Assembly: GCA_031297485.1 (NCBI GenBank)
Contig: JAISYE010000028.1
Location: 1-39,203, forward strand
From: Clostridiales bacterium
GTDB lineage: Bacteria > Bacillota > Clostridia > Lachnospirales > JAISYE01
DNA length: 39,203 bases
Direction of reading: 5' to 3'
Shown here: one piece after another, positions 131 to 30,855 of the stretch
Position numbering within the stretch: the first letter of the stretch is position 1
Layout of the letters: each line of letters starts with the position of its first letter
The notes under the pieces: model-generated
Databases searched by the model: none
The model's input: the letters and a program-made list of their open reading frames with translations, nothing else
What the model was told of the DNA's origin: nothing
Position numbers and translations under genes: made by a program

Positions 131-352
131 TAGGGGCGAACCACATTGGCGCAAACTTAAGGCTTGGGAAAGGTCAAAAGATTAAGACCAACGGACAGTT
201 CACCGTTAGGGCTCTGCCCCAAACCCCGCTGGGGGCTTCGCCCCCAGACCCCTTCTTAAGGGCGGCGGGCGCAGCGCTTTTGACGCAGGTACAGCCTTTT
301 TAAAAAAGGGATTGTTTATTTTTTTCTTAAGCTCGCACTTCTGGGGGCGAAC
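131..352 (+). repeat. Modular intergenic repeat (family 1), copy a
   Basis: This roughly 220-bp unit recurs in other gaps of the window. Its modules in order are a GCGCAAACTTAAGG box, an AAGGTCAAAAG box, a hairpin pairing CCAACGG with CCGTTAGG, a GGGG-GC-TTC-GC-CCCC hairpin, CCCTTCTTAAGGG, and a T-rich tail (TTATTTTTTTCTTAAG). I see no gene here; short open frames through it are made of repeat sequence. Confidence 0.75.
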
Positions 353-3370: not shown

Positions 3371-3784
3371 ATTTTCGCAGTATTCACAAACATTATGAAT
3401 AAGAACGGTCAAAACCTTAAGACCTTGGTGGTTCTGCCCATAGGCGCGAACTTAAGGAATGAGAAAGGTCAAAACCTTAAAACCAACGGACAGTTCACCG
3501 TTAGGGGCCTAATAATGATTTGTCCGTTGGCCCCAAACCCCATAAGCGCAAACTTAAGAAAAAAATAACTAGTGGTGTATCCGTCGATATTTTAAAGAAG
3601 AAATAAATATTTTCGGCCAGTAGTTTCAAGTGCAAATGTCGCGGGAGTGCGGGTGAACCCTAACGGTGGGTTGTCCGTTGCGGTGATTTGTCCGTTGGTT
3701 CGCCCCTACTATGATTTATGAGCGGATTCACCACTAGTACCTTTTATTAAGAACACTGTACTTGCCGCCCTTAAGAAGGGGTCT

Positions 3785-9168: not shown

Positions 9169-10288
9169 GGCGAAAATTTTTCCATTTATCCCCGCAGCGC
9201 TGACACTGGCGGTTCTTGGGGCAATCGCCGCGCAAGATTACAGGGGTTACGCGCGTTTATTTTTCGCCGCCCCCCTTGCGGGTCAAAGTCCTGCCGCCGG
9301 GACGGCTGCGGGGCCGGACAGTCCGGCGGGCTGTTCCCAGGAAACGCTGGAGGACATAAACGAAGAAGAATTTCTAATAACCTGCGAGCTTGCTCACGAG
9401 GGTATAATACAGGTGGAAGGCGTTGGATACGAGGTTGCGGTTAAGGGCTGCGGATATACGTACCCGTTTATAATGAGGAGCGGAATACTAAGCGGGGGAT
9501 TTTTTACCGCTAAGGACCAGGAAAACAGTGCTGCTGTTGCGGTTATGAACAAGAAGGCGGCTTTTGACATTTTTGGGGCGGTAAGTGTTGTGGGGAACAC
9601 CTTTACTATGGGCGGGAAGACCTTTGCGGTTGCTGGGGTTATTGACGATACCGGACGCGCAGGCTCCGGCGAGGCGGACCGGAACTTACAGAGGAATTTA
9701 TACGTGCCCATGACCCTTTATCCAGAGGAACGGCCTGACACCTTCATGTGCGCGCTGGAGGGTTCGGTGACTCAGGAGCGTATTACGAGCGTGCTGAAAC
9801 AGGCCGGTGTGGTTGAAACCAAGTACAAGCTGGTCAATCTGGGAGTTCTTGTACAAGTTATACGCGGCAAGTTTTGGATTGCACTTATTATAGGGGCTTA
9901 CGGGCTTGGGCTATGGCTGATTGGCAAATGCTGGGAAGTAATGGCCGGGATTTTAACCGAGCTGCGCCAACTGCGAAAGCAATTCTATCTGAAGGAACTG
10001 CTCCGGCAGAATTTTAACCGGGCCGCGGCCCTGGTACTGCTGGCGCTGCTGACTGCCGCGATTGCCGCCGCGCTGGCGGCGGGCGGCAGGCTTGCGGTGG
10101 AACTGGCCGCGGTTTGGCGCGGATGCGTGAGTCCTCTCTTTGACTTAAATCTGAGTGCTTTCACGGATACTCTCGCGTTTATAAGGGGCTGCGATTTACT
10201 CTCCAATATTTTCTTCGCCGTCTTCGCGGTCGGTACCGCTGGGGCGGTTATACACGGCTTTATTTTTAGGGCAAGGTCAAAAGATTAA
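9149..10288 (+). CDS. MacB/FtsX-like ABC permease without ATPase domain
   Basis: The GTG start lies inside the end of the adaptor gene. The 379-residue protein has the MacB/FtsX plan. An N-terminal helix (FIPAALTLAVLGAIAA) is followed by an extracellular domain with the MacB_PCD signature (NSAAVAVMNKKAAFDIFG through FTMGGKTFAVAGVI). Three more helices lie near residues 235-255, 285-310 and 345-370. MacB itself carries its ATPase at the N-terminus; here the ATPase is missing and none follows. Together with the HlyD-like protein it would make a mechanotransmission or export module. A Gly/Ala/Pro-rich stretch near residues 48-58 (TAAGPDSPAG) resembles the linker insertions of neighbouring genes. 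Confidence 0.8.
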   Translation: MISLWIRAKIFPFIPAALTLAVLGAIAAQDYRGYARLFFAAPLAGQSPAAGTAAGPDSPAGCSQETLEDINEEEFLITCELAHEGIIQVEGVGYEVAVKGCGYTYPFIMRSGILSGGFFTAKDQENSAAVAVMNKKAAFDIFGAVSVVGNTFTMGGKTFAVAGVIDDTGRAGSGEADRNLQRNLYVPMTLYPEERPDTFMCALEGSVTQERITSVLKQAGVVETKYKLVNLGVLVQVIRGKFWIALIIGAYGLGLWLIGKCWEVMAGILTELRQLRKQFYLKELLRQNFNRAAALVLLALLTAAIAAALAAGGRLAVELAAVWRGCVSPLFDLNLSAFTDTLAFIRGCDLLSNIFFAVFAVGTAGAVIHGFIFRARSKD

Positions 10289-10341
10289 GGGCTTGGAGGC
10301 TCTGCCCCATGGGCGTAAGGTTTGGGGAAGGTCAAAAGATT

Positions 10342-10397
10342 AAGACCTTAAGACCTTAAAACCTTAAGACCTTAAAACCTTAAAACCTTAAAACCTT
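10342..10397 (+). repeat. 8-bp tandem repeat (AARACCTT), seven units
   Basis: Seven exact 8-bp units alternate between AAGACCTT and AAAACCTT. In most family 1 copies this box is present only once, so the array is a local expansion and a likely site of length variation. Confidence 0.92.
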
Positions 10398-10589
10398 GGG
10401 GCTCTGCCCCAAACCCCGCTGGGGATTTCATCCCCAGACCCCTTCTCAAGGGCGGCTAATGCGGCGCTTTTGGGGCAGGTACAGCCTTTTTAACAAAAGG
10501 GACTGGTTATTTTTTTCTTAAGCTCGCGCTTTTGGGGCCTAACGATGGTTTGTTCGTTGGCACCAAACCCCGCCGGGGATTTCATCCCC

Positions 10590-10611
10590 GATAGTCGAGC
10601 TTGCTCGACGA
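10590..10611 (+). repeat. 22-nt hairpin mini-element, copy 3
   Basis: GATA, arms GTCGAGC/GCTCGAC around TT, then GA, followed by AG as at the other sites. It sits exactly at a junction where about 45 bases of the family 1 repeat are missing compared with 10430-10475. Confidence 0.7.
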
Positions 10612-10771
10612 AGCGCTTTTGATGCAGGTACAGCCTTTTTAAGAAAAGGGACTGGTTATTTTTTTAAGTTTGCGCCAATGGGACATGGTCCTAATGCCTA
10701 AGGAATGACAGCATATTTAAAACCATGCCTTTCTGAAACGCCAATACGGCTTGAAAGAATTTCTTTGAAAC

Positions 10772-14048: not shown

Positions 14049-14215
14049 GACCTTGGCGCTCTGCCCCAAACCCCGCTGGGGACTTCGCCCCCGATAGTCG
14101 AGCTTGCTCGACCCAGACCCCTTCTTAAAGGCACGCGGGTGCGGCGCTTTTCTGTAGGGGCGGACTGTGTTCGCCCGCTTTCAATAAATGTTTTTTTCTT
14201 AAGCCCGCGCCTATG
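14049..14215 (+). repeat. Modular intergenic repeat (family 1), copy e
   Basis: It begins right after the tyrS stop with GACCTTGGCGCTCTGCCCC, followed by the GGGG-AC-TTC-GC-CCCC stem interrupted by a mini-element. Then come CCCCTTCTTAAAGG and a hairpin TAGGGGCGGAC-TGT-GTTCGCCCGC. It ends in the T-run and TTAAGCCCGCGCC box. Confidence 0.75.
14093..14114 (+). repeat. 22-nt hairpin mini-element, copy 4
   Basis: GATA, arms GTCGAGC/GCTCGAC around TT, then CC, followed by AG. The uninterrupted site (TTCGCCCCC joined to AGACCCC) is present at 15379-15395 and at 237-252. Confidence 0.8.
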
Positions 14216-14270: not shown

Positions 14271-15191
14271 TCAAAATAAGCTGTACTCACTAACCCTGCG
14301 TGCCCAGGCGTTAGCGGATAAAATAAGCGCCAGCCCGACACCCATCCTCATAAGCCCCACGGCGGCGGCCAGAGGATACCGCCCCTGCTGCAAGCCGACG
14401 GTATATATATGGGTATCCAGCACCCGGGAATAATCCGAGACCATAGGGTTGCCCAATAAAAAGGAAGGGTCGAACCCGGCCTCCAGCAGCCCGGGCAGCG
14501 CCATTATGGTCAGTACGATAACCGTGGGCAGAATACCCGGCAGGGTTATGTGCCATATGCGCCGGAACCGGCCCGCGCCGTCCACAGTGGCGGCCTCGTA
14601 CAGCTGGGGGTCGATGTTTGTGATCGCCGCTATATAAATAATAGCGCCCCAGCCCATTTCCTTCCAAACGTTTATACCGGCTACCAGGAACCAAAACAGC
14701 CGCGCCTGGGTCAGAAAGAATATCGGCTTGTCAATAACCCCCAAGGAGATAAGCACGCGATTGACCAGCCCGCCGTCCGGTGAAAGCAGTGTGGAAGCTA
14801 TATTGGCGACCACAACAAAACTGATAAAGTGCGGCAGGTACGAAATGGTCTGTATAACCCTGCGCATACGGCGCAGAAACAGCTCGTTAAGCAGCACGGC
14901 GAACAGCACGGGAAACACTGTGCCGCAAATAATGTTAAGGGCGCTTATGGCAAGAGTGTTGCGCATCAGCAGAGGAAAATCCGGCGTCCTTAAAAACTCG
15001 CGGAAATACCGCAGCCCGACAAACGGACTACCCGTCAGCCCCAGGCCGGGGTTATAGTCGAAGAACGCTATCAGCATCCCCCACATTGGCATATAGGCAA
15101 ATACCGCCACGTACACTACCGCCGGCGCCAGCATCGCCAGCAGATACTTTTGCTGGGCCAGCCGCGCCGGCAGAGTTTTCTTCACCGCCAT
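14271..15191 (-). CDS. Orphan ABC permease, LplB/aldouronate type
   Basis: This 306-residue permease is of the LplB group, which takes up oligosaccharides such as aldouronates together with an LplC partner and a large lipoprotein. The N-terminal helix is YLLAMLAPAVVYVAVFAYMP. The coupling loop PQLYEAATVDGAGRFRRIWH (about residues 195-215) is the EAA motif, and the C-terminus ARRVSEYSLF is typical of the family. AAGGAGGTG lies close before the ATG. No partner permease or binding protein is next to it, and family 1 repeats lie on both sides. It may be the remainder of a larger operon broken by repeat-mediated rearrangement. Confidence 0.88.
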   Translation of the reverse strand: MAVKKTLPARLAQQKYLLAMLAPAVVYVAVFAYMPMWGMLIAFFDYNPGLGLTGSPFVGLRYFREFLRTPDFPLLMRNTLAISALNIICGTVFPVLFAVLLNELFLRRMRRVIQTISYLPHFISFVVVANIASTLLSPDGGLVNRVLISLGVIDKPIFFLTQARLFWFLVAGINVWKEMGWGAIIYIAAITNIDPQLYEAATVDGAGRFRRIWHITLPGILPTVIVLTIMALPGLLEAGFDPSFLLGNPMVSDYSRVLDTHIYTVGLQQGRYPLAAAVGLMRMGVGLALILSANAWARRVSEYSLF

Positions 15192-15254: not shown

Positions 15255-15505
15255 CGAAACAGCCCCATTGGCGCGAACTTAAGGCTTGGGGAAGGTCAAA
15301 AGGTTAAGACCAACGGACAGTTCACCGTTAGGGGCCAACGAACAAAGCATCGTTAGGCCCCAAACCCCGCTGGGGACTTCGCCCCCAGACCCCTTCTTAA
15401 GCGCGGCGGGTACAGCTTTTTTTGATGCGGGTACAGCTTTTTAATGATAGTCGAGCTTGTTCGACTGTAAAAGGGACTGTTTATTTTTTTCTTAAGTTTG
15501 CGCAT
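15255..15505 (+). repeat. Modular intergenic repeat (family 1), copy f
   Basis: A nearly complete copy: GGCGCGAACTTAAGG box, AAGGTCAAAAG, hairpin CCAACGG/CCGTTAGG, directly followed by hairpin GGGGCCAACGA/TCGTTAGGCCCC, then the GGGG-AC-TTC-GC-CCCC stem and the T-run tail. A run of ten C bases at 15509-15518 follows it. Confidence 0.78.
15446..15467 (+). repeat. 22-nt hairpin mini-element, copy 5 (slightly decayed)
   Basis: GATA, arms GTCGAGC and GTTCGAC around TT, then TG. The arms now contain one G-T pair. It splits the CTTTTTAA|AAAAGGG hairpin that is uninterrupted in the copy at 10487-10501. Confidence 0.65.
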
Positions 15506-15550
15506 GTGCCCCCCCCCCTATAACAAATCTCAACGTTCGTGAGTATATAA

Positions 15551-15582
15551 AAAAAATAAAAAAAGGGATGCCTAAGCATCCC
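15551..15582 (-). terminator. Intrinsic terminator of the small RNA
   Basis: On the minus strand the stem GGGATGC/GCATCCC (8-bp GC-rich, loop TTAG) is followed by a run of seven T and further T-rich sequence. Confidence 0.85.
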
Positions 15583-15703
15583 TAACGGCAGCAACTCTGC
15601 CATGAGGCCCGGTTTCCACCGCGCCTTCTCTGTTTATATAGAAACCACCTTAATCATTTTCAAATTCGACCAGCCCCTTTCACATTAAATTTGTTCCTGG
15701 AAC
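15557..15703 (-). ncRNA. Unassigned small RNA (about 147 nt) with own promoter and terminator
   Basis: A strong promoter (15710-15738) points into this stretch, and an intrinsic terminator closes it, with no open frame between. Visible hairpins include GTTCC/GGAAC at the 5' end, GGTTTC/GAAACC around the middle, CGGT-GGAA-ACCG, GGCAG/CTGCC and the terminator stem. I tested the sequence by eye against SRP RNA, tmRNA, RNase P, T-box, TPP, FMN, cobalamin and tetrahydrofolate riboswitches and found no match. A divergent 6S-type RNA remains possible. It lies downstream of queT on the same strand but has its own promoter, so it is probably a free-standing RNA. Confidence 0.6.
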
Positions 15704-15709
15704 ATTTAA

Positions 15710-15738
15710 ACTATACAATACAGACGCGCTTGTGTCAA
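15710..15738 (-). promoter_or_regulatory. Sigma-A promoter of the small RNA
   Basis: On the minus strand TTGACA (15733-15738) and TATAGT (15710-15715) are separated by exactly 17 bp, close to consensus. Transcription would start near 15703. Confidence 0.8.
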
Positions 15739-15766: not shown

Positions 15767-16261
15767 TTAGGATTTGCTGGCAAGCACTCTGTTAAGCACA
15801 AAAAACTTGAACACCGGATACCCCACAGCCGTAACAACCGCCAGTTCCCCGGCCATGACCAGCAATGGGTTCAGGAACCAAGCGGGCCCAAGGGGCACGT
15901 TTTCAAAAAAATTTATTTCAGCGCCGATAATAGCGCCGTTGACAAGCGCGGGCCACAGGGAAGCGGCAAACAAGTTCTTTGTGCGCCCGATGAGGAACAC
16001 GGCCAGGGCTGTCGCCGCCGTGCCCAGCAGGGCGTCCATCATTCCAAAGGGGGAGGCCAGGTTGGAAATAAAGCAGCCCAGCACAACACCCGTGCCGTAT
16101 ATGGGATCAATAAACGCGGCCAGGTTCAAAATTTCGGCAAGGCGCAATTGAACGGCGTAAAAACTTAATTCTTTAACCACGGGCGCAAGGGTAAGCACAG
16201 TGTAAGCCGCGGCAATCATGCCCGCGACGACTAATTTCTTAACAGCCGTTCTGTTGTTCAT
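15767..16261 (-). CDS. queT: QueT-type ECF transporter substrate-binding (S) component
   Basis: This 164-residue membrane protein of the QueT family is the substrate-binding part of an energy-coupling-factor transporter, thought to take up a queuosine precursor. The family signature VQLRLAEILNLAAFIDPIYG and the following GCFISNLASPFG-DALLGTAATALAVFL are clear, and five to six helices are predicted. The ATG overlaps the trpS stop (ATGA), so it is translationally coupled to trpS. I see no preQ1 riboswitch at its 5' side, which fits its position inside an operon. The shared EcfAAT module is not in the window. Confidence 0.88.
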   Translation of the reverse strand: MNNRTAVKKLVVAGMIAAAYTVLTLAPVVKELSFYAVQLRLAEILNLAAFIDPIYGTGVVLGCFISNLASPFGMMDALLGTAATALAVFLIGRTKNLFAASLWPALVNGAIIGAEINFFENVPLGPAWFLNPLLVMAGELAVVTAVGYPVFKFFVLNRVLASKS

Positions 16262-17247
16262 AACGGAAATCCTATCCTTTCCTTAACCGCTTTAAGGGTT
16301 TTTTCCGCTATTGCCGCGGCCCGCGGGGTGTTTGACGCTATAACCTTGTCCAAGTAGGCGCTGTCCGCGGATATTTCGCGGTACCGGGACTGTATGGCGG
16401 ACAGGGCGGCCGCCACTGTTTCGGCCACCGCGTTTTTAAACGGGCCGTACTTTACGCCCGCAAAGTCTTTTTCGGCTTCCGCTATGGTTTTGTCGGTAAA
16501 AACGCTGTAAATGTCCAGCAGGTTGCTGACACCGGGCTTGGTTTCCGAATAGCGCACCTCGCTTTCGGAATCGGTAACAGCGCGTTTTATTTTCGACGCG
16601 ATGGAATCCGGCGGGTCCAGCATATAAATTACCCCCTGGTCGCCGTCTCCGTCAGACTTGCTCATTTTGCGGGACGGGTCCTGCAGGTTTTTAATCTTCG
16701 CGCCGGATTCCGGTATCAGCGCCTCGGGCACCGTAAACACGTCACCGTACATATTATTGAAACGTATGGCAATATCCCGCGAAAGCTCCAGGTGCTGGCG
16801 CTGGTCCTCGCCGACAGGCACAAACCCCGCGTTGTACAGCAGGATGTCCGCCGCCTGCAATACCGGATAGGTGAACAGCCCCGCGTTTATATTGTCCTGA
16901 TGTTTTTTGGACTTCTCTTTAAATTGCGTCATGCGGCTCAGCTCGCCCATATAGGTATAGCAGTTAAGAATCCAAGCCAGTTCCGCGTGGGCCGGCACGG
17001 CGGACTGGTAATAAAGGACGCTGGCTTCCGGGTCTATCCCAGTGGCGATTAGAAACGCAAGCATGTCGCGGCAGTTTTTCCGCAGTTCCGCCGCGTCGTG
17101 CCTTATGGTTATGGCGTGCATATCCACTATGCTGTACACGCAAAAGTAACGCTCCTGCAATTTTACCCAGTTGCGCAGCGCGCCCACATAGTTGCCCAGC
17201 GACGGCGCGCCGCCGCTGGGTTGTATTCCGCTGAAAAGCGTTTTCAT
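16258..17247 (-). CDS. trpS: Tryptophanyl-tRNA synthetase
   Basis: This 329-residue class I synthetase charges tRNA-Trp. FSGIQPSGGAPSLGNYVGAL at the N-terminus contains the HIGH-like motif. GEDQRQHLELSRDIA marks the catalytic core, and RKMSKSD (about residues 191-197) is the signature loop. AAAGGAG lies seven bases before the ATG. The ribosome site and start were apparently once inside the end of glgB, before a 98-bp element came between them (17271-17368). It overlaps queT by 4 nt. No T-box leader is present. Confidence 0.97.
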   Translation of the reverse strand: MKTLFSGIQPSGGAPSLGNYVGALRNWVKLQERYFCVYSIVDMHAITIRHDAAELRKNCRDMLAFLIATGIDPEASVLYYQSAVPAHAELAWILNCYTYMGELSRMTQFKEKSKKHQDNINAGLFTYPVLQAADILLYNAGFVPVGEDQRQHLELSRDIAIRFNNMYGDVFTVPEALIPESGAKIKNLQDPSRKMSKSDGDGDQGVIYMLDPPDSIASKIKRAVTDSESEVRYSETKPGVSNLLDIYSVFTDKTIAEAEKDFAGVKYGPFKNAVAETVAAALSAIQSRYREISADSAYLDKVIASNTPRAAAIAEKTLKAVKERIGFPL

Positions 17248-21654: not shown

Positions 21655-21960
21655 GGGTTCTTTAATAAGTGCGCGCGAAGCGCAGAAGGGGTCTGGAGAC
21701 GAGACCTCATGGGCGCGGGTTTAAGGCTTGGGAAAGTTCAAAAGATTAAGACCTTGGGGCCAACGAACAAACCATCGTTAGGCCCCAAACCCCGCTGGGG
21801 ACTTCATCCCCAGACCCCTTCTTAAGGGCGGCGGGTGCGGCGCTTTTGGCGTTGGTACAGCCTTTTCAAGAAAAGGGTCTGGTTATTTTTTTTAGTTCAC
21901 GCTAATGGGACAAGACTCCGAGATTTAGGGCAGAGCCCCAATGTCTTAAGGTTTTGACCT
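21655..21960 (+). repeat. Modular intergenic repeat (family 1), copy g
   Basis: It includes an inverted fragment (AGAAGGGGTCTGG) at the left. A forward copy follows with AAGGCTTGGG, the hairpin GGGGCCAACGA/TCGTTAGGCCCC, the GGGG-AC-TTC-AT-CCCC stem, CCCTTCTTAAGGG, CCTTTTCAAGAAAAGGG and the T-run. A short inverted tail follows it (about 21915-21960). No gene is seen. Confidence 0.75.
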
Positions 21961-25289: not shown

Positions 25290-25362
25290 AGCTCTTAACC
25301 GGATTTGAACCGGTGACCTCATCCTTACCAAGGATGCGCTCTGCCGACTGAGCTATAAGAGC
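25290..25362 (-). tRNA. tRNA-Thr (anticodon GGT)
   Basis: The acceptor stem GCTCTTA/TAAGAGC, D-arm AGCTCAGTCGGCAGAGC, anticodon loop TTGGTAA on a CATCC/GGATG stem, and T-arm CCGGTTCAAATCCGG form a complete 73-nt cloverleaf. The 3' CCA is not encoded. It stands alone with its own promoter. Confidence 0.95.
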
Positions 25363-25375
25363 AACTTCAAGTTGT

Positions 25376-25404
25376 ATTATAATTTTATTTTGCCGTAAAG
25401 TCAA
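25376..25404 (-). promoter_or_regulatory. Sigma-A promoter of tRNA-Thr
   Basis: On the minus strand TTGACT (25399-25404) and TATAAT (25376-25381) are exactly 17 bp apart and end 14 bp before the tRNA. Confidence 0.85.
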
Positions 25405-30511: not shown

Positions 30512-30855
30512 GTAGTGGTGCATGGTCGATATTTTAGAGGAAAATAAATATTTTTGGCCGATAATTGAGCTTGTTCGGCGCAGCAGTTGCAACTGCAAAT
30601 GCCGCAGCGATGCGGGCGAACACAGTTCGCCCCTACAGAAAAACGCTGCGCCCGCCGCACTTGAAGAAGGTGTCTGGGGACGACTCCCCATAAGCGCGAA
30701 CTTAAGAAAAAAATAAACAGACCCTTTTCTTAAAAAGGCTGTACCTGCATAAAAAAGCGCTGCACTCGCCGCCCTTAAGAAGGGGTCTGGGGACGAGTCC
30801 CCAGCGGGGTTTGGGGCCAACGAACAAACCATCGTTAGGCCCCAAGGTCTTAATC
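30512..30855. repeat. Intergenic repeat cluster (family 2 then inverted family 1, copy h)
   Basis: TAGTGGTG...GATATTTTAGAGG...GGCC is the family 2 start, interrupted by a mini-element at 30560. A hairpin GGGCGAAC-ACA-GTTCGCCC follows. Two inverted family 1 stretches come next, each with a GGGGAC/GTCCCC stem (shortened loop), then AAGAAGGGGTCTGG and GGGGCCAACGA/TCGTTAGGCCCC. No gene is present between the sigma factor and the SpoIID-like gene. Confidence 0.75.
30560..30581 (+). repeat. 22-nt hairpin mini-element, copy 6 (decayed arms)
   Basis: GATA, then ATTGAGC and GTTCGGC around TT, then GC, followed by AG. It lies between GGCC and AGCAGTTGC, which are contiguous at 29150-29160, so insertion of exactly 22 nt is directly visible. 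Confidence 0.8.

Follow-up and report, generated by a model that had tools for sequence, protein, structure and literature searches.

We propose that this Clostridiales genome encodes a lineage-restricted regulatory small RNA of about 145 nt on the minus strand, driven by its own vegetative promoter in the 3′ region of trpS-queT and ended by the operon terminator. We assign this reading a probability of roughly 0.55. The sequence signals, the predicted fold, the lack of a match to any described RNA family and an hfq gene in the genome are observed; transcription of the RNA, its action by pairing, any part played by Hfq and all targets are inferred. Counting in its favor are the RNA's own promoter and terminator, a two-hairpin module, the lack of an Rfam family or of an open reading frame (ORF) with a convincing ribosome site, its unique sequence and an encoded Hfq. 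Counting against it are the lack of homologs in the genomes searched, two exact copies of the promoter within ORFs, a 5′ part that folds no better than its shuffles and the lack of convincing pairing with the start regions of neighboring genes. The features of the locus are collected in Table 1; "the window" refers to the whole 39-kb stretch of DNA that was analyzed.

Table 1. Features of the trpS-queT 3′ region and the candidate RNA, in order along the minus strand.
Feature	Position	Strand	Basis or remark
Class I W/Y tRNA synthetase, taken as trpS	16258-17247	minus	overlaps queT by 4 nt
queT (PF06177), upstream gene	15767-16261	minus	profile PF06177
Sigma-A-type promoter-like site TTGACA-17-TATAGT	15738-15710	minus	11/12 match to consensus
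Imperfect DNA dyad TTTAAATGTTCCAGGAACAAATTTAA at the putative transcription start	15684-15709	minus	sequence and fold
Putative small RNA, ~145-148 nt	15558-15705	minus	promoter and terminator; transcription predicted
Weakly folded purine-rich stretch (AAAGGGG, AAGGUGG), possible pairing region	15632-15691	minus	fold, unpaired probabilities
Hairpin AGGC-G-CGGU-[GGAA]-ACCG-G-GCCU, GNRA-type loop	15605-15626	minus	predicted fold
Hairpin AUGGCAG-[AGUUG]-CUGCCGU	15585-15603	minus	predicted fold
Intrinsic terminator, probably also ending trpS-queT	15557-15583	minus	only terminator-like site listed behind queT

Promoter and terminator of the candidate RNA

An earlier note on this DNA had described a near-consensus promoter, and we find it as stated, with a 17-bp spacer and 11 of 12 consensus positions. 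The site lies 28 nt past the end of queT, and thus inside the 3′ region of a protein operon, where its sequence predicts that it may be used. When the 211-nt 3′ region of queT was dinucleotide-shuffled 20,000 times, a match of this quality arose in 0.37% of cases. Because five 11/12 sites occur across the whole window, the look-elsewhere effect is real and the promoter alone is not rare; what gives it weight is the strong terminator that follows closely on this strand. The stronger argument comes from the genome as a whole, which has 192 sites of the TTGACA-N17-TATAAT type with at most one mismatch, compared to 17 in a reversed control; given this approximately 11-fold enrichment, the greater part of them probably do act as promoters. 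The majority of the perfect copies in the genome stand ahead of an ORF or a known RNA. The exact TTGACA-17-TATAGT form has three copies in the genome and none in the control, small numbers in both cases, and the two further copies are both within long ORFs. On this sequence evidence, the promoter of the candidate RNA is probably, though not certainly, real.

Other promoter-like sites were noted as well. Just upstream of TTGACA-17-TATAGT, and overlapping the end of queT, is a second one on the minus strand (TTGCCA-18-CATAAT, 10/12, 15783-15754). A tRNA gene in the window (25290-25404, minus strand) has a TTGACT-17-TATAAT box just upstream, providing an in-window example of a stable-RNA promoter, and a SAM riboswitch (L041, 1374-1477) lies downstream of a perfect consensus promoter.

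The strong terminator, which together with the promoter had been said to enclose about 147 nt, was likewise confirmed. It has an 8-bp stem at 15583-15564 of the minus strand (AGGGATGC-TTAG-GCATCCCT) followed by the T run TTTTTTATTT, and the enclosed RNA comes to about 145 nt. Promoter and terminator are about 125 nt apart and both are on the minus strand, to which we assign the element, the earlier note having given no strand; this strand also carries glgB, trpS, queT and, downstream, the gene for an ABC permease. In the 6S RNA gene of the same genome, the box TTGCCA-17-TATAAT ends at 9402, 9 nt ahead of the model start at 9393, and by analogy with this spacing the inferred +1 is A15705 or G15703. 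Judged from these signals, both ends of the RNA are credible.

Besides the RNA's own terminator, no minus-strand terminator-like site is found between queT and 15583. The RNA therefore sits in the trpS-queT 3′ region and probably shares its terminator with the operon, whose transcripts would read through. Its description as a stand-alone RNA thus holds for its own promoter and terminator, but not for its position within an operon 3′ region or for the terminator, which is probably shared. The lack of another terminator behind queT also suits the main rival explanation, in which this DNA is simply the 3′ UTR and terminator of trpS-queT, the promoter match is due to chance or yields only a by-product, and no functional RNA is made. 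The five 11/12 matches in the window and the placement of two of the three exact TATAGT sites in coding sequence point the same way, as does the lack of conservation in the genomes searched. However, with this promoter type so enriched across the genome, chance is the less likely source of the match, and a terminator needs less than the roughly 180 nt of unique sequence found here, which includes two additional strong hairpins. We regard a plain 3′ UTR as unlikely, if by no means far-fetched.

Predicted fold and coding potential

From 5′ to 3′, the predicted fold comprises a 5-bp hairpin, some 65 nt of purine-rich, weakly folded sequence, the GGAA-loop hairpin, a 7-bp hairpin and the terminator. 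The whole RNA folds modestly better than its shuffles (z −2.4 to −2.6), with z = −1.4 once the terminator is removed. The 47-nt two-hairpin 3′ module has z = −3.8 and beats all 500 shuffles, and the 5′ 74 nt fold no better than chance (z = +0.7). The excess in the whole RNA is thus due to the 3′ hairpins and the terminator, and the structural evidence is confined to the 3′ module; the 5′ half, lacking any structural excess, speaks for a plain 3′ UTR. At the putative transcription start, the RNA form of the DNA dyad is predicted to be the 5-bp hairpin UGUUC-CAG-GAACA, for which protection of the 5′ end or an operator are possible readings. As the operator of a regulon the palindrome was rejected, since it is not enriched in the genome. 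A plus-strand covariance match at 15529-15626 (22.5 bits) was also dismissed, as it reflects the self-complementarity of the hairpins.

The claim that the RNA has no open frame is essentially correct, as no ORF with a convincing ribosome site was found. A 40-codon frame begins within the RNA (15603) and runs through the terminator without an evident Shine-Dalgarno sequence. The main other coding candidate is a 9-codon TTG frame at 15663-15634, which would make the RNA a tiny mRNA for the peptide MKMIKVVSI, either alone or as a dual-function RNA. Its putative ribosome site, AAAGGGG, stands 10 nt ahead of the TTG. With only nine codons, a TTG start and no homolog found for a coding test, we consider this reading very doubtful.

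Search for relatives

By blastn, the candidate RNA is single copy in its own genome and has no relative in 96 related genomes; searches of its own genome, these relatives, phages and plasmids returned only the RNA itself or chance matches of 26-34 bases. A single-sequence covariance model of the full RNA recovered only the query in samples of 196 genomes from the order and 391 from the class, in searches with stricter filters that may lose weak relatives. With a model of the 3′ module, one other match appeared among 392 genomes (G175, E 0.04), which is expected by chance across that many genomes and appears to lie in coding sequence. Exact copies of the tetraloop hairpin were sought in 84,980 species genomes, with 13 matches, which come from unrelated phyla and are identical over those 20-22 bases only; we attribute them to chance.

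The queT protein has no close relative in the same collection of 84,980 species genomes, and its best match within the order is 54% identical. The genomes searched included no other member of the same family, so that little can be concluded about function from the lack of homologs. This lack does preclude a covariation test.

Known RNA families

No Rfam family reached its gathering score in the region, and a lax search (E ≤ 10) gave best E values of 1.6 and above, none of them convincing. With no family reaching E = 1, the Rfam check agrees with the earlier view that this is no standard RNA. That note had also proposed an undescribed regulatory RNA or a divergent 6S RNA. The first of these is still the best reading, given the credible ends and the absence of an Rfam family, with its regulatory role the presumptive part. 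The second did not hold. The candidate resembles 6S RNA (RF00013) in size, in having its own promoter and in its promoter-terminator layout, and two 6S genes are described for some Firmicutes (PMC7726162), which we counted in favor of a divergent or second 6S RNA that would bind RNA polymerase. However, a canonical 6S RNA is already encoded on another contig (G000:C47:9203-9393, 54.2 bits), and the region contains no 6S covariance match at E ≤ 10. The candidate is predicted to fold as a row of separate hairpins without a closing rod or central bubble, and its ends form no 6S-like rod. We give this possibility almost no credence.

A role in sequestering CsrA, as for RNAs of the Rsm/Csr type, also appears highly improbable. 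The genome has two CsrA matches, and the candidate carries GGA both in the loop of a hairpin (GGUGGAAACC) and within CAGGAAC. Csr/Rsm decoy RNAs normally carry several GGA motifs; although the candidate shares with them a loop GGA and an encoded CsrA, it has too few GGA hairpins, with only one motif clearly in a loop of the predicted fold. The CsrA matches are at G000:C2:528-680 and G000:C79:1659-1814, and the first lies inside a 189-codon open frame that is longer than a normal CsrA and is perhaps a fusion.

Genomic surroundings

Several relatives (among L004-L009) have a trpS-length frame adjoining queT. In these relatives, the next gene after queT is often a short one with weak zinc-ribbon matches (L005 1980-2405, L004 341-748, L009 775-1209). 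In the window no such gene was seen behind queT; the candidate RNA occupies that position, and no remnant of the gene was detectable.

Unlike the RNA, which is unique sequence, the intergenic stretch that follows it (about 15263-15503) consists of a dense mosaic of interspersed repeats. These repeats (e.g., CCCCAAACCCCGCTGGGGACTTCGCCCCCAGACCCCTTCTTAA) are about 70-100% identical and have copies at many of the other loci examined in this genome; what they form looks like a large REP/MITE-like family. The other repeat sites in the window (141-303, 3437-3541, 10304-10675, 14063-14151, 21705-21866 and 30639-30845) are all intergenic.

The position of the element also raises the possibility of a cis-acting leader or attenuator, in which the terminator would serve as a switch for the ABC permease gene downstream (14271-15191). 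The element is on the same strand, and its terminator is upstream of a transporter gene. However, the permease start codon is about 370 nt away from the terminator, across DNA made up mostly of interspersed repeats, and another promoter-like site (10/12, 15471-15444) lies past the terminator. Additionally, the predicted structure offers no competing antiterminator fold, and no riboswitch or T-box match was found at E = 10. We judge such a leader quite improbable.

Proposed action and place among known systems

In the small regulatory RNA that we favor, transcription would start at its own vegetative promoter in the trpS-queT 3′ region and end at the operon terminator. Target mRNAs would be paired by the 5′ part, which is weakly folded, while stability and a possible Hfq site would come from the 3′ hairpin pair together with the terminator and its U tail. 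Hfq is encoded in the genome (106 bits), and in this model base pairing would be the mode of action, with Hfq possibly involved. Among the starts of the 27 ORFs in the window, no pairing match stands after multiple testing. We regard as improbable a further reading in which the RNA belongs to an undescribed structured class of a deep, sparsely sampled lineage. Behind a pairing region, both 3′ hairpins (the first with the GGAA tetraloop) and the terminator would form its conserved core, and it would be functionally tied to trpS-queT through tryptophan charging or queuosine-precursor supply. None of the papers searched joins queT, trpS and a small RNA.

Small RNAs with their own promoters at the 3′ ends of mRNAs are known in Gram-negative bacteria and have been reported in Gram-positive ones (PMC9438474). 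The reviewed examples include a small RNA promoter at the end of dapB, MicL, and ArgX of the Gram-positive Lactococcus, which is transcribed from the 3′ end of a gene (PMC9438474). The candidate shares with them a promoter located in or downstream of a protein gene's 3′ end, a terminator apparently common to the mRNA and a short RNA. It differs in lying downstream of trpS-queT, its expression and Hfq binding are putative, and the likeness is one of layout. The candidate is thus an ordinary kind of element and by itself brings no new mechanism. Should it prove to be expressed, a poorly sampled lineage would gain one more orphan small RNA, and the small RNAs known at mRNA 3′ ends would gain an example from beyond the well-studied enterobacteria.
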